From assembly GCA_002402045.2 (NCBI GenBank), contig NVUX02000008.1, positions 1 to 64,000 on the forward strand: a DNA stretch of 64,000 nt, read 5' to 3'. This DNA is from Paracoccaceae bacterium (GTDB lineage: Bacteria; Pseudomonadota; Alphaproteobacteria; Rhodobacterales; Rhodobacteraceae). Every line of letters begins with the position of its first letter. The stretch's first letter is position 1. Below the pieces are notes generated by a model, which saw nothing but the letters and a program-made list of their open reading frames with translations, was not told the DNA's origin and searched no databases. Below, piece by piece: positions 9,768 through 24,031 of this stretch. The position numbers were made by a program, and so were the translations under genes.

Positions 9768-10822
9768 TTTGCCCTCGGATCAAAGATTTTATAAAGAAGT
9801 TCGGCAAAGATATTTAGCAGAACAAAGACGAGGCCAACCACCACGGTGCCACCCATTACGGCGTTCATATCGGCCGAAAGCAGCGAGATGGTGATGTATT
9901 TGCCAATGCCAGGCCACGAGAAAATGATCTCGGTCAGCACCGAGCCTTCAAGCAAGCCTGCATAGGAAAGCGCAATCACCGTAATCAGCGGCACTTTAAT
10001 GTTGCCAAAAGCGTGCTTCCACACCACCGCCCATTCAGACATGCCCTTAACGCGGGCCGTGGTGATATATTCCTCACCGAGTTGCTCGAGCATAAAACTC
10101 CGCGTCATCCGGCTGATATACGCCAGCGAGTAATAGCCCAGCAGCGAGGCGGGCAGGATGATATGTGACACCGCATTCCAGAAAATATCCCAGTCCCGCG
10201 CGATAATACTGTCGATCAGGATCATGCCCGTGACGCTCGGTACGATGTCCTCCAGGAAGATATCCACCCGCCCCGGGCCAGAGACCCAGCCAAGCTTGCC
10301 GTAAAGCACCATAAGGCCAATAATGGCCAGCCAAAACACCGGCATCGAATAGCCGATCAGCGCCACAACGCGGGCCACTTGGTCTATCCACGTGCCGCGC
10401 TTTACCGCCGCTATAACCCCGAGTGGCACGCCGATAAACACGCCAATCAGCGTGCCCAGCGTCGCCAGCTCCATGGTGGCGGGGAATACTCGCGTCACGT
10501 CATCCCATACAGGAAAGCCGGTGCGAAGCGATTTACCAAAATCGCCCTGAACCACATCGCCGAGGTATATAAAAAACTGCGTAAATAGAGGTTTATCGAG
10601 GCCTAGCTCCAGATAAACATCCATATATTGCTCTTGCGTGGCGCGCTCGCCCACAATCGACAACACCGGATCCACCGGCATTACCCGCCCGATGAAAAAG
10701 GTTACAAATAAAAGCCCCAGCATGGTGACGGCAATCGTCAGCAGCGTGGAACCGGTTTTTTTCGCTATGCCAAAAAGGGGCGACCTGCGCCGCCCCTTCC
10801 TGCTTGTATCAGCTATCGCCAT
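9764..10822 (-). CDS. Dipeptide/oligopeptide ABC transporter permease (DppB-like)
   Basis: DppB-type permease: SMLEQLGEEYITTARVKGMSEWAVVWKHA-like EAA loop; TEIIFSWPGIGKY. Confidence 0.9.
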   Translation of the reverse strand: MAIADTSRKGRRRSPLFGIAKKTGSTLLTIAVTMLGLLFVTFFIGRVMPVDPVLSIVGERATQEQYMDVYLELGLDKPLFTQFFIYLGDVVQGDFGKSLRTGFPVWDDVTRVFPATMELATLGTLIGVFIGVPLGVIAAVKRGTWIDQVARVVALIGYSMPVFWLAIIGLMVLYGKLGWVSGPGRVDIFLEDIVPSVTGMILIDSIIARDWDIFWNAVSHIILPASLLGYYSLAYISRMTRSFMLEQLGEEYITTARVKGMSEWAVVWKHAFGNIKVPLITVIALSYAGLLEGSVLTEIIFSWPGIGKYITISLLSADMNAVMGGTVVVGLVFVLLNIFAELLYKIFDPRAK

Positions 10823-12421
10823 TTACTTAGTCACGTTCCAATAAGATACAGCTGTAATCGCGCCGCCAAGGTTAAGGCCTTGTACGTTCTCGGAGCGGCC
10901 AGTTTGCTCGATTTTCTGGAACATCACCGCAAATGGGGATGTTTGCTGGTGCTCGCGCTGGATGGCTTCATACATCGCAGCCCGGGTGTCACGGTCGTTT
11001 TCAACAACAGCGGCCAGCGTGGCTTCAGACATTTCAGGAATGCCCCATGAGTTCCGCCAAGCCAGAAGGCCAGTCGCGCCCGCTTCATCAGAGTTATCAG
11101 GGTTAAAGGCAAATGTGCCGGCGTTTGTGTTAGGGTCTGGGTAATCTGGGCCCCATGCGCCTACATAAATGTCGTGCTCACGTGCGCGGTATACGCCCAA
11201 AATCTGCTTGCCGGTGCCCACGGTAATGTTCACCGTAATGCCAGCCTGCCCAAAGGTGTTCTGGAGAGATTGTGCAATCTCGATGCGCTCTTGTGCTTCC
11301 CGCACAACAATCGCAACTTCAAAACCATCGGCATAGCCAGCTTCGGCCAACAGCGCCTTGGCTTTTTCTACGTCGAGCGTAAACGGCACGTCGTCGATCT
11401 CACCCAAGTATGTAGCAGGCAAGAAGGCTTGGTGAATGGTGTATTGGCCATTCAGGAAGCTGTTTTGCATGCCTTCATAATCGATCAGATACTTGATCGC
11501 CTCGATCACCAGCGGGTTCGACAGAATCTCGCTTTTCTGGTTCATCGAAATATACATCAAGCGGCCACGAAGCTCGCTATCCACTTCAATGCCGTCAACG
11601 CGGGAAGCGCCGGCTACATCTTCAGGGTTCAGGTTACGCGCTACGTCAATGTCGCCATTTTCAAGCAGCAGGCGCTGGGTGGCGCTCTCTTGAATGTTGC
11701 GTACAATTACGCGCTGCATAGCCGGGGCGCCACGGAAAAAGTCGTTATTCGCAATCAGCGTTACGCTTTCATTTGGCTTCCAGCTACCCAGCGTATATGC
11801 GCCAGAACCAGCGGAATGCGTGCGCAGCCACTCATTGGCCAAGTCGCCGTCAATTTCATTTTCCATCGCGGTTTTGCTGTCGATAATCGAGCCAACAACG
11901 GCGGTAAGGCAGTTAAGCACAAAGGATGTTGCGTAACGCTTATCGGTGGTGATGGTAATCGTATTGCCATCAGCCACAATGGTTTCGCCAATGTTTTCAG
12001 CGGTAAAGCCAAACTGTGACAGGATAAACGATGGTGTTTTGTTCAGCGTAATCACGCGGCGGAGGGACCACTCAGCGTCTTGCGCGGTAACAGGATTACC
12101 TGATTCAAAGGTCACGCCTTCACGCATGGTAAAGGTGATGGTCTTGCCATCTTCCGAAACCGTCCAGCTTTCGGCCAGCGCAGGAATATACCCAGCGCTC
12201 AGGTCTGCCGGATCAAAACCAACGAGCTTGGTATAGAGGTTGCGGTTTACGTCCGAGCCAGAAAACTCGAAAGACTGCGCAGGGTCAAGCGTGGTGATGT
12301 CATCAATTTGTGCGGCGATGATCAGCATGTTATCGGGGGTGGCGGCAATTGCAGGTGCAATGCTAACGCCAGCGGCCAATATCACGGCAGCACTGAATAT
12401 AGTTGAACGAAGTGCGTTCAT
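10823..12421 (-). CDS. Periplasmic peptide-binding protein (SBP family 5)
   Basis: Signal peptide MNALRSTIFSAAVILAAGVSIAPAIAA; SBP_bac_5-like fold; start chosen at MNALRS with upstream AGGAGG. Confidence 0.88.
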   Translation of the reverse strand: MNALRSTIFSAAVILAAGVSIAPAIAATPDNMLIIAAQIDDITTLDPAQSFEFSGSDVNRNLYTKLVGFDPADLSAGYIPALAESWTVSEDGKTITFTMREGVTFESGNPVTAQDAEWSLRRVITLNKTPSFILSQFGFTAENIGETIVADGNTITITTDKRYATSFVLNCLTAVVGSIIDSKTAMENEIDGDLANEWLRTHSAGSGAYTLGSWKPNESVTLIANNDFFRGAPAMQRVIVRNIQESATQRLLLENGDIDVARNLNPEDVAGASRVDGIEVDSELRGRLMYISMNQKSEILSNPLVIEAIKYLIDYEGMQNSFLNGQYTIHQAFLPATYLGEIDDVPFTLDVEKAKALLAEAGYADGFEVAIVVREAQERIEIAQSLQNTFGQAGITVNITVGTGKQILGVYRAREHDIYVGAWGPDYPDPNTNAGTFAFNPDNSDEAGATGLLAWRNSWGIPEMSEATLAAVVENDRDTRAAMYEAIQREHQQTSPFAVMFQKIEQTGRSENVQGLNLGGAITAVSYWNVTK

Positions 12422-12542: not shown

Positions 12543-13592
12543 CTAGGGCTTCCACGTGCGTTCCAACAGCGCCAGCCAATTCCCAAAGCAAAGCTTTTCC
12601 ATCAGGGCATCATCATAGCCATGCGCCACCATCGCGGCCCGCAAGTTTGGCAGGCCCGAAATATCGCCAATGGCTTCTGGTACCGTCGCCCCGTCAAAAT
12701 CTGAACCAAGGCCCACATGGTCCTCCCCCGCCAAACTGATCATATGATCAAGGTGGCGCAGCATGATCTCCAGCGGAACTTCCGGCTTCATCTGGCCATC
12801 AGGGCGCAAAAATCCGGTGGCAAAGTTCAGCCCGACCATGCCGCCGCTTTGGCCGATGGTGCGGAGCTGGTCATCGGTCAGGTTGCGAGCGTGGGGGCAT
12901 ATTTCATAGGCGTTGGAATGCGTCGCCACAATCGGGGCATCGCTGGTTTCCACCACATTCCAAAACCCCTTTTCGTTGAGATGAGACATATCAAGCATAA
13001 TCCCGAGCGCATTGCACTCGCGCACAAGATCATAGCCAGCAGGGCTAAGGCCAGGGCCGGTATCCCCGGTAGACGGGAAGCGAAACGGCACCCCCTCGGC
13101 AAAAATTGTCGTCCGAGACCACACAGGCCCAAGCGAGCGCAGCCCCGCGCGGTAAAGCACATGCAGCGCATCCAGATCACGGTCAATCGGCTCCGCGCCT
13201 TCCATGTGCATAATCGCCGCCATGGTGCCGCTTTGCATGGTTTTGGTGATATCCGCCACGCTCGTGCAAATCTTTAGCGCACCGTCGCTTTCAAGCGCTG
13301 CCAGCATGCGCGCTTGCTTCATCGCCACGCCCAGCGCTTCACCCTGCTCAACTTTCGGTGGCATCGGAATGTCATATTCCGGTTGCATCATTTGGTCAAT
13401 AATGCCGCCCTCATCCAGCGGACTCGGCACCCAGATGGCAAAAAATCCGCCACCAAAGCCGCCCGCTTTGGCTTTTGGCACATCAATATGGAAGTCGTTG
13501 CCGGTGCTAAACTCGGTGCGCGCGGCCCGTCCACCTAAAAACTGCTTAAGCAGCACATCATTGTGGCCATCAAAAATCAACGGTGTATTCAT
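12543..13592 (-). CDS. Membrane dipeptidase (peptidase M19)
   Basis: IFDGHNDVLLKQF, HMEGAEPI, LDMSHLNEKGFWNV, ATHSNAYEICPHARNLTDDQLR. Confidence 0.93.
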   Translation of the reverse strand: MNTPLIFDGHNDVLLKQFLGGRAARTEFSTGNDFHIDVPKAKAGGFGGGFFAIWVPSPLDEGGIIDQMMQPEYDIPMPPKVEQGEALGVAMKQARMLAALESDGALKICTSVADITKTMQSGTMAAIMHMEGAEPIDRDLDALHVLYRAGLRSLGPVWSRTTIFAEGVPFRFPSTGDTGPGLSPAGYDLVRECNALGIMLDMSHLNEKGFWNVVETSDAPIVATHSNAYEICPHARNLTDDQLRTIGQSGGMVGLNFATGFLRPDGQMKPEVPLEIMLRHLDHMISLAGEDHVGLGSDFDGATVPEAIGDISGLPNLRAAMVAHGYDDALMEKLCFGNWLALLERTWKP

Positions 13593-14515
13593 ATCGTATC
13601 TGGCAAGTATTGCCCCTCCAACCCGATTAAAAATTCTGCAAAGGCTTTGGCCACCGGTGGCAGCGCCCGCCCTGAACGGCGGATTAAAAACCAGTGGCGC
13701 ACAATCGGCAAGCCCTCAAATTCCAGTTTGACGAGCCGCCCGCTTTCCAGCTCGGCGGTCACCGCCTGCCCCGAGATAAAAGCCAGCCCCAGCCCCGCAA
13801 TCGCCGATTGTTTGATGGTCTCGTTACTATCCATCACCATGGTTTTATATTCCCGCCCCTCTCCGATTCTATCAAGAAATCGCTGCATGAGAATGCGGGT
13901 TCCAGAGCCGCGCTCGCGCGAAAGAAAGGTTTCGGCCAGCAGCTCATTGGGCGAAATGTCGCGCTTACCAACTAGAGCATGCCCCTTGGGGGCCACCAAA
14001 ATATGCGGATTATCCCCTAGCACCTCCGCCTCCACCGGCGGGTTTCGCGGCGGCCTGCCCATGATCGCAAGGTCGATTTTCTTGTCGGTCAACGCCCCGA
14101 TTATCTCGGCCCGATTGCCCACAAACAGGCTTATCTCCACATCCGGCAGCTCCTTTTGCGCCGCCACTACAATGCGCGGCGCAAAGTATTTTGCCGTGCT
14201 CACCACCCCCAAAGTCAGGTGGCCCACCTTCCCCGTTTTGAGGGCGTTAATGTTATTATAACAAGCGCTTAAAGAGTTTTCGATCTGCCGCGTGGTCGCC
14301 AAAACAGCCTCCCCACTTTGGGTCAGTACCGTTTTACCCCCCGGCCCTCTATGCACCATTTGCACCCCAAAATTACTCTCCAGTAATTTAAGCTGCGTCG
14401 AGACAGCAGGGGCCGTCACATGCAACAATTCAGCCGCAGCTGTCAGGTTTCCGGCTTTCACAATCGCGGCCAGCGCACGCAATTGCTTCAGGGTTATGGC
14501 ATTTTCATGAATCAT
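13589..14515 (-). CDS. cbbR: LysR-family regulator of the Calvin cycle operon
   Basis: LysR HTH ITLKQLRALAAIVKAGNLTAAAELLHVTAPAVSTQLKLLE; divergent from cbbF. Confidence 0.88.
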   Translation of the reverse strand: MIHENAITLKQLRALAAIVKAGNLTAAAELLHVTAPAVSTQLKLLESNFGVQMVHRGPGGKTVLTQSGEAVLATTRQIENSLSACYNNINALKTGKVGHLTLGVVSTAKYFAPRIVVAAQKELPDVEISLFVGNRAEIIGALTDKKIDLAIMGRPPRNPPVEAEVLGDNPHILVAPKGHALVGKRDISPNELLAETFLSRERGSGTRILMQRFLDRIGEGREYKTMVMDSNETIKQSAIAGLGLAFISGQAVTAELESGRLVKLEFEGLPIVRHWFLIRRSGRALPPVAKAFAEFLIGLEGQYLPDTI

Positions 14516-14617
14516 AGTTTTTCTTAACACAGAAAAGATTTTTTTTAGTTTTATTTTGCGCACGATCTGTCATGCATCACGCATTCACTTTTTCGCAACC
14601 AACGGGAAACAGCGTTT
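14516..14617. promoter_or_regulatory. Divergent cbbR/cbbF intergenic control region
   Basis: 102-bp T-rich spacer between divergent cbbR and cbb operon; LysR-type regulators usually bind here. Confidence 0.5.
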
Positions 14618-15628
14618 ATGACATCGGACACCACCCTGAGCGGCTTTCTTTCAGACAAGCCCAAAGACCTAAGCGAGGCCATTCTCGCGGTGGCCAAAGT
14701 TGGCAAAGACCTTGCCGCCCTCATCTCACGCGGGGCCCTTGGTGGCGAATTAGGCGGAGCCGTGGGCGAGAATAAGGGCGGTGACCAGCAAAAAGCGCTA
14801 GATGTCATGGCCGATGATGTATTCGCCGCAGCGCTCACCAAAACCCAAGTCAAATATTACGCCTCCGAGGAGCAAGACGAGGTGATTACGCTCAATCCTA
14901 ACGGCCACCTCGCCCTCGCGATTGACCCGCTGGACGGCTCTTCCAATATCGACGTTAACGTCTCCATCGGCACGATATTTTCGATCTTTGAAGCCAATGA
15001 GGGCGCAAATGAAAGCTTCCTGCGCCCCGGCAAAGAGCAAATCGCCGCTGGCTACATCATTTTCGGCCCGCAAACCGGCCTTATGCTCACCTTGGGTGAC
15101 GGCACCGCGATGTTTATTCTCGACTATAAAAATGGCGAATATATGCTGGTAAACCCACGCGTAAATATTGTGCCTGATGCCATTGAATACGCCATTAATG
15201 CCTCAAATTACCGCCACTGGTCCACCCCCATCCGCGCTTATATCGACGATATGATCGAAGGCGCTGATGGCATCCACGAGCGCAATTTCAACATGCGCTG
15301 GGTGGCAAGCCTTATCGCCGAAACCCACCGTATCATCTCGCGCGGCGGTATCTTCCTTTATCCGGGTGACAACCGCGACGGCTATAAAATGGGCCGCCTG
15401 CGCATGGTTTATGAGGGCGCGCCCGTGGCCTTTATCGTCGAGCAAGCGGGCGGCATGGCCACCGATGGCAAAGACCGTATTCTGGACCAAACCCCGAAAG
15501 GGCTGCACGAGCGCACCCCGCTGGTATTTGGCTCCAAAAACAAAGTGACCCGCGTGATTGCCTATCACGACCTCCCAGAAACCGAAATGTCTCCGCTGTT
15601 TAAAAAGCGTGGCCTGTTTAACACATAA
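14618..15628 (+). CDS. cbbF: Fructose-1,6-bisphosphatase, class 1
   Basis: AIDPLDGSSNIDVNVSIGTIFSIF, GGIFLYPGDNRDGYKMGRLRMVYEGAPVAFIVEQAGG. Confidence 0.95.
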   Translation: MTSDTTLSGFLSDKPKDLSEAILAVAKVGKDLAALISRGALGGELGGAVGENKGGDQQKALDVMADDVFAAALTKTQVKYYASEEQDEVITLNPNGHLALAIDPLDGSSNIDVNVSIGTIFSIFEANEGANESFLRPGKEQIAAGYIIFGPQTGLMLTLGDGTAMFILDYKNGEYMLVNPRVNIVPDAIEYAINASNYRHWSTPIRAYIDDMIEGADGIHERNFNMRWVASLIAETHRIISRGGIFLYPGDNRDGYKMGRLRMVYEGAPVAFIVEQAGGMATDGKDRILDQTPKGLHERTPLVFGSKNKVTRVIAYHDLPETEMSPLFKKRGLFNT

Positions 15629-15639
15629 GGACCCATCAA

Positions 15640-16512
15640 ATGAGCATCAAGCACCCGATTATCTCCGTGACTGGCTCTTCCGGCGCAGGCACCTCCACGG
15701 TTAAAAACACCTTTGACCAAATCTTCCGCCGCGAGGGTATTAAGGCGGTCAGTATTGAAGGCGACGCCTTCCACGCCTATGACCGCGCAAGCATGAAAGC
15801 CGAGTTTGAAAAGCGCATCAAAGCGGGTGACCACTCCTTCAGCCACTTCTCATACGAGGCCAACGAGCTGGCCGAGCTAGAGCGGGTATTTCGCGAATAC
15901 AGCGAAACCGGCCACGGCAAAACCCGCCACTATGTGCATAATGACGAAGAAGGCGTAGCGTTCGGCGCGGCCTCCGGCACCTTCACCGCGTGGGCTGATT
16001 TTGAGGCCGGCACTGATATGTTGTTTTACGAGGGGCTGCACGGTGCCGTTAAAAATGACGAGGTGAACCTGCCAAATCATACGGACCTCACCATCGGCGT
16101 TGTCCCCGTGATAAACCTTGAGTGGATCCAAAAAATGCACCGAGACCGTGACCAGCGCGGCTATACCACCGAGGCCATCACCGATGTGATTTTACGCCGG
16201 ATGGATGCCTACGTTAAATGCATCACCCCGCAATTCAGCCAAACAGACATCAACTTCCAGCGCGTGCCTGTGGTCGATACCTCCAATCCCTTCATCGCCC
16301 GCAGTATTCCTACGCCAGATGAAAGCCTCGTGGTGATCCGCTTCAAAAATCCGGCTGGCATTGATTTTCCATACCTAACCAACATGATAAATGGCAGCTG
16401 GATGAGCCGCGCCAACTCTATCGTGGTGCCCGGTGGCAAGATGGATCTCGCCATGCAACTCATCCTCACCCCGCTGATTTTACGGCTGGCCGATAACGCG
16501 AAAAGAGCATAA
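15640..16512 (+). CDS. cbbP: Phosphoribulokinase
   Basis: [52 protein letters not shown]. Confidence 0.96.
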
Positions 16513-16514
16513 TT

Positions 16515-18479
16515 ATGGAAACCAACATGGCAAATGCCATCCGTGCGCTGAGCATGGATGCGATCCAAAAAGCAAATTCCGGCCACCCAGGCATGCCCAT
16601 GGGCATGGCTGATGTAGCCACCGTGCTTTTCAACCGTTTTATAAATATCGACCCGAGCAATCCTGATTGGGCCAACCGTGACCGCTTCGTGCTGTCTGCT
16701 GGCCACGGCTCGATGCTGCTCTATTCCATCCACCACCTGCTTGGCTATGATGACATGCCAATGTCGGAAATCGAGAATTTCCGCCAGATGGGGGCGCGCA
16801 CAGCTGGCCACCCCGAGTATGGCCACGCCAAAGGCATTGAAACCACCACCGGCCCGCTTGGCTCCGGCATTGCCACCGCTGTGGGCATGGCCTTGGCCGA
16901 GCGCATGCAAAACGCCCGCTTTGGTGATGATTTGGTAGACCACCACACCTATGTGATTGTAGGCGATGGCTGCCTGATGGAAGGCATTTCCCACGAAGCC
17001 ATTGATTTCGCCGGGAATCTTGCCCTCGGAAAAATGATTGTTATGTGGGACGATAACTCGATCTGCATTGATGGCGACACCGCCCTCTCCACTGGCACCG
17101 ACCAGATGAAGCGCTTTGACGCTGCAAAATGGCACACCATTGCGGTGGACGGCCACGATAAAAACGCCGTTGCCGCCGCGATTGAAGCCGCAAAAGCAGA
17201 CCCCCGCCCAAGCTTCATCGCCTGCAAAACCATCATCGGATACGGCGCACCCAACAAGCAAGGCACCGCCGCCACCCACGGCGCGCCCCTAGGCGCTGAC
17301 GAAATCGCCGCCGCCCGCGTATTCCTCAATTGGCCGCATGCACCTTTCACCATTCCTGCGGATGTGAAAGCCAACTGGGAAGCCATCGCCACCAAAGGCA
17401 ACAATGCGCAAGCTTCGTGGGCCGCGCGCTTGCAGGCATCAAGCCAAGCGAAATCTTTCCGCGCGGCACTAGCGGGGCCTGACTTGGCCGCGCTCAACAC
17501 CGCCCTCACCGCGTATCGCAAAACCCTCAGCCATGAGGCCCCCAAGGTCGCCACCCGTAAAGCCAGCCAAATGGCGCTTGAGATCATCAACGCCACCACC
17601 GATGTTACCATCGGCGGCTCAGCAGATCTCACCGGCTCCAACCTCACCAAAACCAGCACCACCGCCCCCGTTTCGGCCGATGATTTCAGCGGCCGTTACA
17701 TTTATTACGGTGTGCGCGAGCACGGCATGGCGGCGGCCATGAACGGCCTCGCCCTGCATGGCGGCTTTGTGCCCTACGGCGGTACCTTCCTTGTGTTCGC
17801 AGATTACATGCGCGGGGCCATGCGCCTTTCGGCCCTTATGGGCAACCGCGTAATCTATGTGCTAACGCATGATAGCATCGGCCTTGGCGAAGACGGCCCG
17901 ACCCACCAGCCGGTAGAAACCATCGCCAGCCTGCGCGCCATTCCTAACCTCAATGTGTATCGCCCGGCCGATGCGGTTGAGACCGCCGAGGCTTGGGAGC
18001 TAGCGCTGGCGGACGAAAACACCCCCTCCGTGCTCTGCCTGTCTCGCCAAGGCCTTCCAACTTTGCGCACCACGCATACCGACGCGCTGCAAAGCGCCAA
18101 GGGGGCCTATGTGTTGCTTGAGGCCAAGGGCGCGCGTGATGTCACCATAATCGCCACTGGCTCCGAGGTAGAAATTGCGATCAATGCCGCTAAAAAACTA
18201 GCAGCAATCGGCATCAAAGCCGCCGTAGTTTCTGCCCCTTGTTTTGAGCGTTTCAAGGCCCAGCCAGCTGCTTATCGTGCCGAAATTCTCGGCACCGCAC
18301 CGCGTGTTGGCGTTGAGGCGGCCATCGAGCAAAGCTGGGGGGGCTTGCTTGGCGACAATTCTGCCTTTATTGGCATGAGTAGCTTTGGGGCCTCCGCTCC
18401 GGCAGACAAGCTATACGAACATTTTGGCATCACCGCGCAGGCGGTGGTAGACGCCGCAACTACACTGATCAATGCATAG
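16515..18479 (+). CDS. cbbT: Transketolase
   Basis: [55 protein letters not shown]. Confidence 0.96.
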
Positions 18480-18492
18480 AGGGAATTCTCAC

Positions 18493-19491
18493 ATGACTGT
18501 AAAAGTAGCCATCAACGGCTTTGGCCGCATCGGCCGCAACGTGCTTCGCGCCATCATCGAATCTGGCCGGACAGATATTGAAGTTGTTGCCATCAACGAC
18601 CTAGGCTCGGTTGAAGACAACGCGCACCTGCTGCAATTTGATAGCGTGCATGGCCGCTTTCCCCACAAGGTTACGGTTGAGGGCAATACTATCAACGTTG
18701 GCACGGGCCCAATTACGGTTTCCGCCGAGCGCGACCCAACACAGCTAAAGTGGGACGGCGTAGACGTGGCACTGGAATGCACAGGTATTTTTACCGCGCA
18801 TGACAAAGCCAGCCTGCTGCTGCAATCCGGCGCTAAAAAGGTGCTTATTTCGGCCCCCGGTGCGGGCGCTGACAAAACCATCGTTTACGGCGTGAACCAC
18901 GAGAGCCTGACCGCGGCCGACACCATCGTGTCGAATGCCTCGTGCACCACCAACTGTTTGGCCCCTGTTGTGTTTATTCTCAACAACCTCGTGGGTATCG
19001 AGCAAGGCTTCATGACCACAATTCACTCCTACACCGGTGACCAGCCCACGCTGGATACCATCCACAAAGACCAATACCGTGGCCGCGCAGCTGCGCTCAG
19101 CATGATCCCGACCACCACTGGCGCTGCCAAAGCGGTTGGCCTTGTGTTGCCCGAGCTAGACGGCAAGCTCGACGGCATGGCGATCCGCGTGCCAACCCCG
19201 AATGTTTCGGTTGTGGACCTCAAGTTTAACGCCTCGCGCGATACTTCGATTGAGGAAATCAACGATGCTATTCGCGCCGCTGCCGATGGCCCGCTCAAAG
19301 GCGTGCTCGGGTATACCGATGTGAAAAACGTGTCGATTGATTTCAACCACGACCCACACTCATCAATCTTCCACATGGACCAAACCCGTGTGATGGATAA
19401 CCGCCTCGTGCGCATCCTCACATGGTATGACAACGAGTGGGGTTTCAGTAACCGTATGGCTGATAACGCCGTCATCATGGGGAGCTTCTAA
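18493..19491 (+). CDS. cbbG: Glyceraldehyde-3-phosphate dehydrogenase, type I
   Basis: MTVKVAINGFGRIGRNVLRAI, SNASCTTNCLAPVVFILNN; start at ATG 18493. Confidence 0.95.
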   Translation: MTVKVAINGFGRIGRNVLRAIIESGRTDIEVVAINDLGSVEDNAHLLQFDSVHGRFPHKVTVEGNTINVGTGPITVSAERDPTQLKWDGVDVALECTGIFTAHDKASLLLQSGAKKVLISAPGAGADKTIVYGVNHESLTAADTIVSNASCTTNCLAPVVFILNNLVGIEQGFMTTIHSYTGDQPTLDTIHKDQYRGRAAALSMIPTTTGAAKAVGLVLPELDGKLDGMAIRVPTPNVSVVDLKFNASRDTSIEEINDAIRAAADGPLKGVLGYTDVKNVSIDFNHDPHSSIFHMDQTRVMDNRLVRILTWYDNEWGFSNRMADNAVIMGSF

Positions 19492-19508: not shown

Positions 19509-19530
19509 TGGGTGGCGCTTGTGCCACCCA
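19509..19530 (+). repeat. 8-bp hairpin between gap and aldolase genes
   Basis: TGGGTGGC-GCTTGT-GCCACCCA. Confidence 0.5.
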
Positions 19531-19545
19531 ACAATGGAGAAGAAA

Positions 19546-20595
19546 ATGGCCCTAATTACCCTTCGACAATTGCTAGACCACGCCGCAGAAAATGACTACG
19601 GCATGCCGGCATTTAACATTAACAACATGGAGCAAGGCCTTGCAATTATGCGCGGCGCAGCGAAAACAAATTCGCCCGTGATCCTGCAAGCCTCTCGCGG
19701 TGCACGTTCTTATGCTGGCGATATTATGCTGCGGCATATGATACAGGCGCTGTCAGAAATGTACCCTGATCTGCCGATCTGCATGCACCAAGACCACGGC
19801 AATAACGAGCAGACCTGCATGTCTGCGATTAAGTACGGTTTCACTTCGGTGATGATGGACGGCTCGCTAAAAGCTGACATGAAAACACCGGCTGATTTTG
19901 AGTATAACGTTGATATCACCGAGCGGGTTACCCGCTTTGCCCACTGGGTTGGTGCGAGCGTAGAGGGAGAACTTGGGGTTCTCGGCTCACTCGAAACCGG
20001 CATGGCGGCAGAAGAAGACGGCTCCGGCGCGACGGGCAAACTGAGCATGGAGCAACTGCTGACAGACCCTGACGAGGCCGTCGAATTTGTAAAGCGCACC
20101 AAGGTAGACGCGCTGGCAATCGCTTGCGGCACCTCCCACGGCGCTTACAAATTCACCAGCAAACCTACGGGTGATTCACTGGCGATGGACCGGATCGAGG
20201 CTATTCATGCCAAAATCCCCGACGTTCATTTAGTTATGCACGGCTCTTCAAGCGTGCCGCAATATTTGCAAGACCTTATCAATGATAACGGTGGCGAAAT
20301 GGCGCAAACCTACGGGGTTCCGGTTGAAGAGATCGAGCGCGGCATCAAATCTGGTGTGCGTAAGGTGAATATCGACACCGATAACCGCATGGCGCTCACC
20401 GGCACCTTCCGCAAGGTTGCCAAAGAGAACCCGTCTGAGTTTGACCCGCGCAAATTCATGATCCCCGCAATGGCTGAAATGGAAAAGCTGGTTATTGACC
20501 GTTTTGAGCGCTTTGGCGCAGCGGGCAATGCTGGTAAAATCAGCATTATCCCGCTGGATGACATGGCCAAGCGCTACGCCGACGGCTCGCTTTAA
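19546..20595 (+). CDS. cbbA: Fructose-bisphosphate aldolase, class II
   Basis: [45 protein letters not shown]. Confidence 0.95.
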
Positions 20596-20640: not shown

Positions 20641-22020
20641 ATGGATCACGCAGATCGTTTTATAGACCTCTCCCTTGCCGATGCAGATTTGGCGGCCAGC
20701 CACGTGCTGGCCGCCTATATTCTGAAGCCCGCAGACGGGTATGATTTCCTAAAAACTGTCACGCATTTCGCCGCTGAAAGTGGGTGCGGCACGCAGGTGC
20801 CACTGGCAAATGAGGATGCGTTTTCACGCACGCTGGATGTGATTGCCTATCAGGCTGAGGCCTCTAATGGCCTCGTGAAACTCGCCTTCCCACTGGCGCT
20901 GTTTGATTTCAACATGTCCGATGGCAAAGCCTCGATTACAAGTTTTCTCAACCTTCTGGCGGGCAACACCCAAGGCATGGCTGAAATTGCCGACCTAAAG
21001 CTGCATGATTTCCACTTGCCCGAAAGCTACCTGAAGGCCTTTGACGGCCCGCAAATCACCATTGCGAAACATTGGACGCACTTGGGACGAGACGAGGCCG
21101 CTGGTGGCATGATCGTCGGGGCCATCCTAAAGCCCAAGCTAGGCTTGCGCCCCAAAGCGCTGGCCGATGCAGCCTATAAGTTTTGGCTCGGCGGAGATTT
21201 GGTCGAAAACGACCAGCCCCAAGGCAACCAGAGCTTTGCGCCCTTGGCCGACACCCTGCCGCTCATGGCCGATGCCCTAAAACGGGCGCAGGATGAAACC
21301 GGCGCGGCCAAGATATTTTCGGTGAATATAACCGCTGACGACCCCACAGAGATGGACATGCGCACTGAGGCAGCGCTGGAGGCCTTCAAGGCCACGCCCA
21401 ACAGCCTCGCCTTTCATATAGACGCCTATATTGCTGGCCCTATGGCCCTCACATACGCCTGCCGCACCCTGCCATATTTTATAAGCGCCCATCGCGCGGG
21501 GCATGCTGCGGTTACGTCCCAACGCTCAAATCGCGGCTACTCCGCCTTTGTGTTGACCAAAATCAACCGCCTGATGGGGGCCTCGGGCATTCATACCGGC
21601 ACCATGGGCTTTGGCCGTATGGAGGGCAATGAGGCCGATCGGCCCATCGCCTGCATGATCGCGCAAAACGTAGCCCAAGGGCCGTATTTTGAGCAAAACT
21701 GGCACGGCATGAAGCGCTCGGCCGCCATCGTTTCGGGCGGTATAAACGCCCTGCGCCTGCCGTCGTTCCTGCAAAACCTCGGCCATTCCAACTTCATCCT
21801 CGCCGCTGGCGGCGGGGCGTTTGGCCATATCGATGGCCCAACAGCTGGCGCACTTTCGCTAAGGCAAGCCGAGGCCTGCTGGCTAGCACGCGCCGACCCG
21901 TTTGACTTTGCCGCAGATCACCCAGAATTCGCCCGCGCCTTCCTCAGCTTTGAGCAAGACGCCGATATCATTCACCCCGGCTGGCGCACCGCGCTACCCC
22001 ACGACATAACCAACCAGTAA
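20641..22020 (+). CDS. cbbM: Form II RuBisCO large-subunit homologue with non-canonical active site
   Basis: Colinear with form II RuBisCO (GAILKPKLGLRPKALADA, HRAGHAAVTS, GIHTGTMGFG, GGGAFGHIDGP) but GGDLVENDQPQGNQ replaces GGDFIKNDEPQGNQ and GFGRMEG replaces GFGKMEG. Confidence 0.9.
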   Translation: MDHADRFIDLSLADADLAASHVLAAYILKPADGYDFLKTVTHFAAESGCGTQVPLANEDAFSRTLDVIAYQAEASNGLVKLAFPLALFDFNMSDGKASITSFLNLLAGNTQGMAEIADLKLHDFHLPESYLKAFDGPQITIAKHWTHLGRDEAAGGMIVGAILKPKLGLRPKALADAAYKFWLGGDLVENDQPQGNQSFAPLADTLPLMADALKRAQDETGAAKIFSVNITADDPTEMDMRTEAALEAFKATPNSLAFHIDAYIAGPMALTYACRTLPYFISAHRAGHAAVTSQRSNRGYSAFVLTKINRLMGASGIHTGTMGFGRMEGNEADRPIACMIAQNVAQGPYFEQNWHGMKRSAAIVSGGINALRLPSFLQNLGHSNFILAAGGGAFGHIDGPTAGALSLRQAEACWLARADPFDFAADHPEFARAFLSFEQDADIIHPGWRTALPHDITNQ

Positions 22021-22029
22021 GGACCCATC

Positions 22030-22713
22030 ATGGACCGTTCCATTAAAATAGCCCCGTCGATCCTATCGGCAGATTTCGCCAATTTCGGACAAGAGATCCG
22101 CGCCATTGAGGACCAAGGCTGTGACTGGGTGCATGTGGATGTGATGGACGGCCATTTTGTGCCCAACCTCACCTTTGGCCCCCCCGCCGTGGCCGCCTTT
22201 CGCCCACACGTAAAAACCGTGATGGATGTGCATCTGATGATCTCTCCGGTGGACCAATATATTGAGGCCTATGCCAAGGCGGGCGCAGATTTCATTTCGG
22301 CGCATCTTGAGGCCACCACCCACCCGCACCGGACGTTGCAGGCCATCCGCAACACCGGCGCCAAGGCGGGCCTGGCGCTGAACCCCGGCACGGGTATTGA
22401 TGGTATCGAGTATATGCTGGACCTGATTGATATGTTTGTGGTGATGACCGTAAACCCCGGTTTTGGTGGGCAAAAGTTCATTCACTCGCAGATTGAAAAG
22501 GTGAAAAACCTGCGGGCTATGATCGGAGATCGCCCGATCCACATTCAGATTGATGGCGGCATTACCACCGAAACCGCGCCCTTAATGGCGGCTGCTGGGG
22601 CCGATGTGCTGGTGGCTGGCTCAGCGGTGTTTAACGGTGGCAGCGTGGACACCCCCGAGATTTACGGCGCCAATATCAAAGCCATTCGCGACGCAGCAGA
22701 GGCCGCGCGCTGA
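22030..22713 (+). CDS. cbbE: Ribulose-phosphate 3-epimerase
   Basis: IKIAPSILSADFANFGQEI, VHVDVMDGHFVPNLTFGP, VMTVNPGFGGQKFI. Confidence 0.96.
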   Translation: MDRSIKIAPSILSADFANFGQEIRAIEDQGCDWVHVDVMDGHFVPNLTFGPPAVAAFRPHVKTVMDVHLMISPVDQYIEAYAKAGADFISAHLEATTHPHRTLQAIRNTGAKAGLALNPGTGIDGIEYMLDLIDMFVVMTVNPGFGGQKFIHSQIEKVKNLRAMIGDRPIHIQIDGGITTETAPLMAAAGADVLVAGSAVFNGGSVDTPEIYGANIKAIRDAAEAAR

Positions 22714-22714
22714 T

Positions 22715-23356
22715 ATGAAATCTGTAGTATTTGATCTCGACGGCACGCTGATTCACAGCTCGCCAGACCTGCAAGCCGCCGCCAATAAAATGCTGGCCGA
22801 TTACGGGTTCACCCCGCTTGATCTGGCCGCCATCGAGGGTTTCATCGGCAATGGCGTGCCCAAGTTGGTCGAGCGCTGCTTAAAGGTTTATAACAAGCCG
22901 CTGACAGAGGAGGCCGTGGACAAAATGCGTGAATATTACGACGCAGACCCGTTTACGCTAACCGTGCCTTATGAAGGTATGTTCGACTGCCTTGAATCGC
23001 TGAAAGCGGCTGGCATAAAGCTGGCGGTTTGCACAAATAAGCCGCTGGCCCCAGCCCTCACCATTTTGGACGGCTTGCAGCTAACGCAATATTTTGATGT
23101 TGTGGTCGGCGGAGACACCTATTCGACCCACAAACCAGACCCACAACCGCTGCTCGGCTGCATGGAAAAGATGGGGGCAGAAATGGCCAATACCATCTAT
23201 GTGGGCGACAGCGAAACCGATGCGCTAACAGCCAAAAACGCAGATATGACCTTTGCGCTGTTTTCCGGTGGCTACCGTAAAACCCCGTGTAAAGAGCTGC
23301 GGCACCATTTCTTGTTTGACGACTTTTCGGCCCTTACGCCTTATTTGAAAGGCTGA
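22715..23356 (+). CDS. cbbZ: Phosphoglycolate phosphatase (HAD family)
   Basis: MKSVVFDLDGTLIHSSPDLQAAANKMLADYG; VGDSETDALTAKNA; in cbb operon. Confidence 0.9.
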   Translation: MKSVVFDLDGTLIHSSPDLQAAANKMLADYGFTPLDLAAIEGFIGNGVPKLVERCLKVYNKPLTEEAVDKMREYYDADPFTLTVPYEGMFDCLESLKAAGIKLAVCTNKPLAPALTILDGLQLTQYFDVVVGGDTYSTHKPDPQPLLGCMEKMGAEMANTIYVGDSETDALTAKNADMTFALFSGGYRKTPCKELRHHFLFDDFSALTPYLKG

Positions 23357-23359
23357 CCC

Positions 23360-24031
23360 TTGGCGATTAAGGCGCTTATTTTTGACGTGGATGGCACCTT
23401 GGCCGAAACCGAGGAGGCGCACCGGCAGGCGTTTAACGAGACCTTTGCCGCCAGCAAAATGGACTGGGCGTGGGGCGTGCCGATGTATGGCACCTTGCTC
23501 AAAACCACCGGCGGCAAAGAGCGGATGCAGGAATATCAGAAAACCCACCGGAGCCACGAGCCGCAAATGGACCGGGATCAAATACAGGATTTGCACGCGC
23601 AGAAAACCGCGCGTTATGTGGAAATACTGGCCTCAGGCGGCTTGCCACTGCGCGCGGGCGTGGCGGACCTGATCTCGCGGGCACAGGCGGCGGGGCTGCG
23701 CCTCGCCATTGCCACCACCACCAGCCGTCCCAATGTGGATGCGCTTACGGCGTGCTGCTGGGGGAAAACCCCAGAGCAGATATTCGAGGTGATTGCGACT
23801 GGCGAGCACGTGAAGGCGAAAAAGCCCGCGCCGGATCTTTTTGAGCTGGCCCTTAAAGGGCTTGGCCTGCCAGCGGCTGAGTGCCTTGCTTTTGAGGATT
23901 CCCGCAATGGCGTGTTTTCCGCCACAAGGGCCGGGCTGCGCACCATTGTGACGCCCGGGCAATATACGGCAAACGACGATTTCAGCGGGGCGGCAGACGT
24001 AATATCATCCTTGGAAGGGTTCCAGTTCTAG
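23360..24031 (+). CDS. cbbY: CbbY-type HAD phosphatase
   Basis: TTG start; IKALIFDVDGTLAETEEAHRQAFNETF, TTGGKERM, AFEDSRNGVFSATRAG. Confidence 0.88.
   Translation: MAIKALIFDVDGTLAETEEAHRQAFNETFAASKMDWAWGVPMYGTLLKTTGGKERMQEYQKTHRSHEPQMDRDQIQDLHAQKTARYVEILASGGLPLRAGVADLISRAQAAGLRLAIATTTSRPNVDALTACCWGKTPEQIFEVIATGEHVKAKKPAPDLFELALKGLGLPAAECLAFEDSRNGVFSATRAGLRTIVTPGQYTANDDFSGAADVISSLEGFQF

Follow-up and report, generated by a model that had tools for sequence, protein, structure and literature searches.

The locus considered here raises the question of what is encoded by a gene that holds the RuBisCO position of a Calvin-cycle operon when the carbamylated lysine, a metal ligand and the loop-6 lysine of the form II enzyme have all been replaced. 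It lies in a stretch of 64,000 nucleotides (the window) from contig NVUX02000008.1 of a Paracoccaceae bacterium. Most RuBisCO-like proteins are old and lie at a great distance from true RuBisCOs, which makes the loss of the chemistry with retention of the fold hard to study. The protein encoded in the operon slot is, to judge from its sequence and genomic setting, a RuBisCO-like protein of recent origin, descended from the genuine form II enzyme that occupied this same slot, and this evolutionary account of the gene is well supported. A single genus spans all stages of the change (canonical enzyme, substituted and maintained protein, pseudogene, empty slot) and also holds a second RuBisCO that plausibly permitted it, the transition being thereby open to stepwise test.

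The slot gene and its operon

The slot gene (20641-22020, forward strand) is an open frame of 459 codons, as given in the original prediction, and is annotated here as a form II RuBisCO derivative predicted to be carboxylase-dead. Its 459-residue product is a full-length form II homologue, sharing 55% identity with Rhodospirillum rubrum CbbM and reaching 617.9 bits with the NCBIfam form II model NF010002, against a curated cut-off of 489. This calls for some caution in annotation, because NF010002 labels the slot protein as RuBisCO and surveys of cbbM would count it as a CO2-fixing gene.

Residues are numbered as in R. rubrum, on the basis of phmmer alignments to solved form II enzymes and of a MAFFT alignment that included the R. 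rubrum sequence, itself confirmed against the full length of the 9rub chain. On the forward strand, codon 189 (21205-21207) is GAA and encodes Glu at the equivalent of the carbamylated K191, codon 192 (21214-21216) is CAG and encodes Gln at the equivalent of the metal ligand E194, and codon 326 (21616-21618) is CGT and encodes Arg at the equivalent of the loop-6 K329, meaning that Glu/Gln/Arg stand where active carboxylases have K191/E194/K329. The original prediction had read the same three codons and matched them by eye to the same residues, a correspondence in which both alignments agree, with no shift. Its further statement that the rest of the active site is retained holds for the residues it named and overlooked a fourth active-site change found in the alignment, namely codon 52 (20794-20796, forward strand), where CAG encodes Gln at the equivalent of N54. 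All 14 other substrate or metal contact residues checked are unchanged in the window protein, these being the equivalents of E48, T53, N111, K166, K168, D193, H287, R288, H321, S368, G369, G370, G393 and G394. A structural model predicted by AlphaFold from a 12-row alignment was poor (mean pLDDT 56, pTM 0.38).

The same set of residues (E/D/Q at 191, 193 and 194, with R at 329) recurs in four further genomes of the genus, at 80-89% identity to the window protein, the search for such genomes having been proposed with the original prediction. This recurrence in independent assemblies led to the rejection of a sequencing or assembly error as the cause of the substitutions. The canonical K/D/E and K are kept in the 38 canonical sequences of the tree and in another 26 form II sequences of the phylum, and no variant was found outside the genus in the sampled 397 family, 385 class and 399 phylum genomes. 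Likewise, no description of a form II enzyme devoid of the carbamylated Lys, or of such a two-RuBisCO arrangement, was found in the open-access literature. In the mutational map of the R. rubrum enzyme, all substitutions at K191, K166, K329, D193, E194 and H287 were treated as catalytically dead (PMC11839469). The slot protein is altered at three of these six positions, which makes it very likely that it no longer carboxylates; the remaining pocket should still hold a sugar bisphosphate.

The surrounding operon, of the CbbR-controlled type, has the order cbbF-cbbP-cbbT-cbbG-cbbA-RuBisCO gene-rpe-gph-HAD hydrolase and is preceded by a divergent cbbR (13589-14563, reverse strand), the LysR-type regulator gene, whose product scores 425 bits with NF045990, slightly below the cut-off of 450. 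All other genes lie on the forward strand. Those upstream of the slot encode class 1 fructose-bisphosphatase (cbbF, 14618-15628), phosphoribulokinase (cbbP, 15640-16512), transketolase (cbbT, 16515-18479), type I glyceraldehyde-3-phosphate dehydrogenase (cbbG, 18472-19491) and class II fructose-bisphosphate aldolase (cbbA, 19519-20595, the true start probably being an ATG slightly downstream). The slot is followed by the genes for ribulose-phosphate 3-epimerase (rpe/cbbE, 22030-22713) and phosphoglycolate phosphatase (gph/cbbZ, 22715-23356; TIGR01449 209 bits, cut-off 180), the latter taken to start at 22715, with its longest frame opening at 22604 within rpe. The last gene of the operon (23360-24031) encodes a HAD-family hydrolase resembling beta-phosphoglucomutase (best match TIGR02009, below cut-off) and occupies the same position in relatives. 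The window genome carries soxB and no photosynthetic reaction-centre gene was found in it, a combination that fits sulfur-based chemoautotrophy.

Some exchange of operon genes was also apparent. The window cbbG shares 89-93% identity with its counterparts in G402, G405 and G398, which are more distant genomes, and only 79-81% with those of the close relatives G399, G207, G406, G404 and G397, although most of the other operon genes of these relatives are closer; being nearer to distant than to close relatives, it suggests recombination of cbbG within the genus. The gph gene may have been exchanged within the genus as well, with the copies of G407 (L060 7801-8418) and G401 (L124 1421-2047) sharing only 62-63% identity with the window gph and those of most variant-bearing genomes sharing 84-88%.

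Second RuBisCOs and slot contents across the genus

A search of the whole window genome found exactly one other RuBisCO, designated CbbM2 (G000:C69:30808-32175; L002/L035). Like the slot protein it is a full-length member of the form II family, and unlike it CbbM2 is canonical, with K/D/E and K; the two share 49-50% identity. The CbbM2 gene has its own divergent LysR gene (cbbR) and is followed by cbbQ, whose product has AAA_5 and CbbQ_C domains, and then by a gene in the cbbO position encoding a VWA-domain protein. With a second canonical form II enzyme accompanied by cbbQO, the cell would not depend on the slot gene of the window for CO2 fixation. Origin of the slot gene as a duplicate of CbbM2 was rejected, the grouping of the variants with CbbM2 failing the AU test (p-AU 0.0003). 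In G406, CbbM2 (L062, L107) belongs to a separate subtype, with 79% identity to the CbbM2 of the window genome, and its cbbQ and cbbO are 89-96% identical to those of the window genome despite this divergence, which suggests that cbbM2 alone was replaced there.

The slot between cbbA and rpe was examined in 13 genomes of the genus, available as draft assemblies. Two of them (G407 and G402) carry a canonical cbbM in the slot, and no other RuBisCO was found in either. Five, comprising the window genome, G399, G400, G403 and G406, have the E/D/Q+R variant, always together with CbbM2. A single genome, G404, has K/D/Q+R; CbbM2 was not detected in it, and cbbQO genes lie at the end of a contig, with 77% DNA identity to the cbbQO that accompany a form I enzyme in G405. 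In G397, which also has CbbM2, the slot gene encodes D/D/A+T and also carries E48D and, at N54, a short deletion. Across these seven variants D193 is conserved, residue 191 is an acid or Lys and residue 194 is neutral. The slot copy of G207 (L036 9389-10132, G207:C48), another genome with CbbM2, has lost large internal segments and has Pro in place of the loop-6 Lys, within a neighbourhood mostly 80-97% identical to the window, and its sequence clearly marks it as an endpoint of decay. It was the only copy with the features of a pseudogene (broken frame or no purifying selection), the frame being open in the six genomes with E/D/Q+R or K/D/Q+R. The slot is empty in the three remaining genomes: G401 has CbbM2, G405 has the form I enzyme and in G398 no RuBisCO was found. 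The G398 region (L126, G398:C17) has cbbA, cbbG, rpe and gph in order around the empty slot, and in this assembly, 90% complete, the RuBisCO may be either lost or unassembled.

A second RuBisCO, or its cbbQO genes, was thus present in 10 of the 11 genomes with a non-canonical slot, the other one being that without any detected RuBisCO, and was found in neither of the two with a canonical slot. In each of the eight genomes where the slot gene is substituted or deleted there is a second form II enzyme or, in G404, cbbQO of the form I type. Such co-occurrence is suggestive of a second RuBisCO as the cause of the slot change and falls short of causal proof, since the independent events are few and only two genomes keep the canonical slot. 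In genome G111, where no second form II was found, a cbbM with the canonical K/D/E and K motifs (L038, about 9948-11214) is divided between two overlapping frames, apparently through a frameshift or a fault in the assembly.

Origin of the variant and selection acting on it

A long branch leads to the seven slot variants in the protein tree, where they are united in a single clade (support 100/100), and the AU test does not reject their grouping with the canonical cbbM of the genus (p-AU 0.37); the exact attachment of the variants within form II is uncertain given this long stem. When the tree is built from the other operon genes, the genomes bearing a variant fall into a single clade of eight, and the canonical slots belong to two outer lineages, an arrangement implying that the slot held a canonical gene ancestrally. 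This position between cbbA and rpe is moreover orthologous to that of the canonical cbbM in G407 and G402, as expected for descent from form II. Divergence at fourfold sites is similar in the slot gene and in the operon (52% vs 49% between window and G407, 52% vs 44% between window and G397). The dN between window and G407 is 0.347 for the slot and 0.128 for the operon, compared with 0.073 and 0.163, respectively, for the canonical pair G407-G402; for the closest pair, window and G399, the slot dN is near the operon average. Operon-like fourfold divergence combined with much larger amino-acid change indicates that the slot gene most likely diverged fast and in place, instead of being acquired from a distant source. 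Arrival of a foreign gene in the slot is not favoured, given that fourfold divergence matches the operon, and a plasmid or phage origin was also discarded, plasmids holding only canonical-type Cereibacter cbbM and phages none.

G397 shares derived changes with the other variants, for example I190V and T391A, so that the loss of catalytic residues probably began before the G397 split. The position of G404, with Lys at 191, differs between trees: it falls outside the other variants in the protein tree, with modest support (93/66), and pairs with G400 in the codon and operon trees. Its Lys191 may have been inherited from the ancestor or regained, and the operon tree leans slightly towards a reversion.

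A codon model gave an omega of 0.118 for the six E/D/Q+R and K/D/Q+R sequences, about 2.5 times the 0.048 of canonical cbbM, with values of 0.059 for CbbM2, 0.061 for cbbA, 0.082 for cbbG and 0.036 for rpe; pairwise NG86 estimates were consistent with these. When omega was fixed at 1 in the variant clade (kappa held at 2), the fit was worse by 382 log units and neutrality was rejected. The variant is clearly under purifying selection, weaker than that on the canonical gene, and is therefore a maintained protein. Of 191 positions at which 38 canonical sequences do not vary, 133 are conserved across all six variants; those unchanged include 14 of 14 other contacts vs 119 of 177 positions elsewhere (Fisher p 0.006, for a set chosen after the data had been seen).

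The raised omega and the deletion pseudogene of G207 mean that this selection may be weak, and, with the gene lost or broken elsewhere in the genus, the main rival explanation is one of slow decay, according to which the gene is on its way out and its product has no present role, persisting only as part of a polycistronic operon. Besides the G207 copy and the omega above that of canonical cbbM, the empty slots of G401, G405 and G398, the acceleration on the stem and the further changes of G397, such as E48D, are in line with it. However, a full-length frame is found in seven of the eight genomes of the clade, omega stands at 0.118 with a value of 1 firmly rejected, all the pocket residues are kept, and the dN between window and G399 is near the operon average. 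Overall, slow decay appears unlikely.

Possible functions and relation to known systems

The explanation regarded as probable is that the slot protein descends from the native form II enzyme, altered in place, as a RuBisCO-like protein that is carboxylase-dead and has kept its sugar-bisphosphate pocket. In this model, the presence of a second RuBisCO with a CbbQO activase would have left the operon cbbM free to lose carboxylase activity. Fast change along the stem of the eight-genome clade would then have removed the carbamylated Lys, one metal ligand and the loop-6 Lys, and on one branch the protein would have returned to purifying selection as a RuBisCO-like protein. It would still fold and dimerise as a form II enzyme and would bind RuBP or a similar sugar bisphosphate, without carboxylation, via intact phosphate and hydroxyl contacts (T53, N111, K166, K168, H287, R288, H321, S368, G369/G370 and G393/G394), serving perhaps to bind, sense or enolise that ligand. 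One of the two options in the original prediction, a RuBisCO-like protein that had lost carboxylase activity and was kept in a cbb operon, is strengthened by the three dead-set positions (PMC11839469), by the intact second form II enzyme with cbbQO and by relatives in which the slot is altered further, deleted or gone.

The second option, a pre-activated enzyme with Glu in place of the carbamate, is unlikely for a carboxylase, the loop-6 Lys being lost, and is conceivable for the metal site, given the acid or Lys at 191 and the neutral residue at 194. In such a CO2-independent site, Glu189 (Asp in G397) would replace the carbamate and hold a divalent metal together with D191, while Gln or Ala at 192 would lower the charge, and the enzyme would carry out a reaction other than carboxylation, for instance the enolisation or isomerisation of a sugar bisphosphate. 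The 191/194 pattern with D193 kept in every variant agrees with this, as do the conserved K166 and H287, and a Lys/Glu exchange between the close relatives G404 and G400 would be expected if carbamylated Lys and Glu were interchangeable. The same exchange may equally mean that residue 191 no longer matters; Glu is, besides, shorter than carbamyl-lysine, and a K191E mutant of the R. rubrum enzyme, made in 1985, was reportedly inactive. Every K191 substitution is also counted as dead in R. rubrum (PMC11839469). The metal site is accordingly held to be doubtful, and a shade more so the full proposal that Glu or Asp acts as a carbamate surrogate in a metal site independent of CO2 activation, supporting a new, non-carboxylating sugar-bisphosphate reaction in a Calvin-cycle operon.

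RuBisCO active sites are shared between two subunits, and the slot protein could in principle form mixed dimers with CbbM2, giving E48, T53 and N111 to its active site or modulating it. The N-terminal contributions are kept in six of the seven variants, and the two genes co-occur in the same genomes. Nevertheless, the two proteins are only 49-50% identical, G404 has a variant and no detected CbbM2, and the CbbM2 of G406 is of a different subtype (79% identical), all of which makes a partner subunit improbable. An active carboxylase with an unusual pre-activated site, as might be supposed from a full-length frame under purifying selection in a cbb operon, is hardly credible, since loop-6 Lys, metal ligand and carbamylated Lys, each highly sensitive in R. 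rubrum (PMC11839469), are gone and another RuBisCO is present in the cell.

Viewed as a RuBisCO-like derivative, the slot protein remains close to the form II CbbM of Rhodobacterales and R. rubrum in length, in identity (55-59%) and in its NF010002 score above the cut-off, and the window operon has the same cbbF-P-T-G-A-M order as that of Cereibacter sphaeroides, there with an active-type cbbM. Unlike form II CbbM, it has K191, E194, K329 and N54 replaced and has undergone accelerated protein evolution, and its genome differs from those form II systems in having a second canonical form II gene elsewhere. With the form IV RuBisCO-like proteins, such as the 2,3-diketo-5-methylthiopentyl-1-phosphate enolase MtnW and OiaX, it shares the RuBisCO fold, the replacement of residues needed for carboxylation and the conservation of other pocket residues. 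It belongs to neither of these two families as scored, reaching 57-66 bits with the MtnW models and 83 with that of OiaX, against cut-offs of 409-700; its best match is to form II, with which it also groups. The carbamylated Lys, lost in the slot protein, is retained by form IV proteins such as MtnW.
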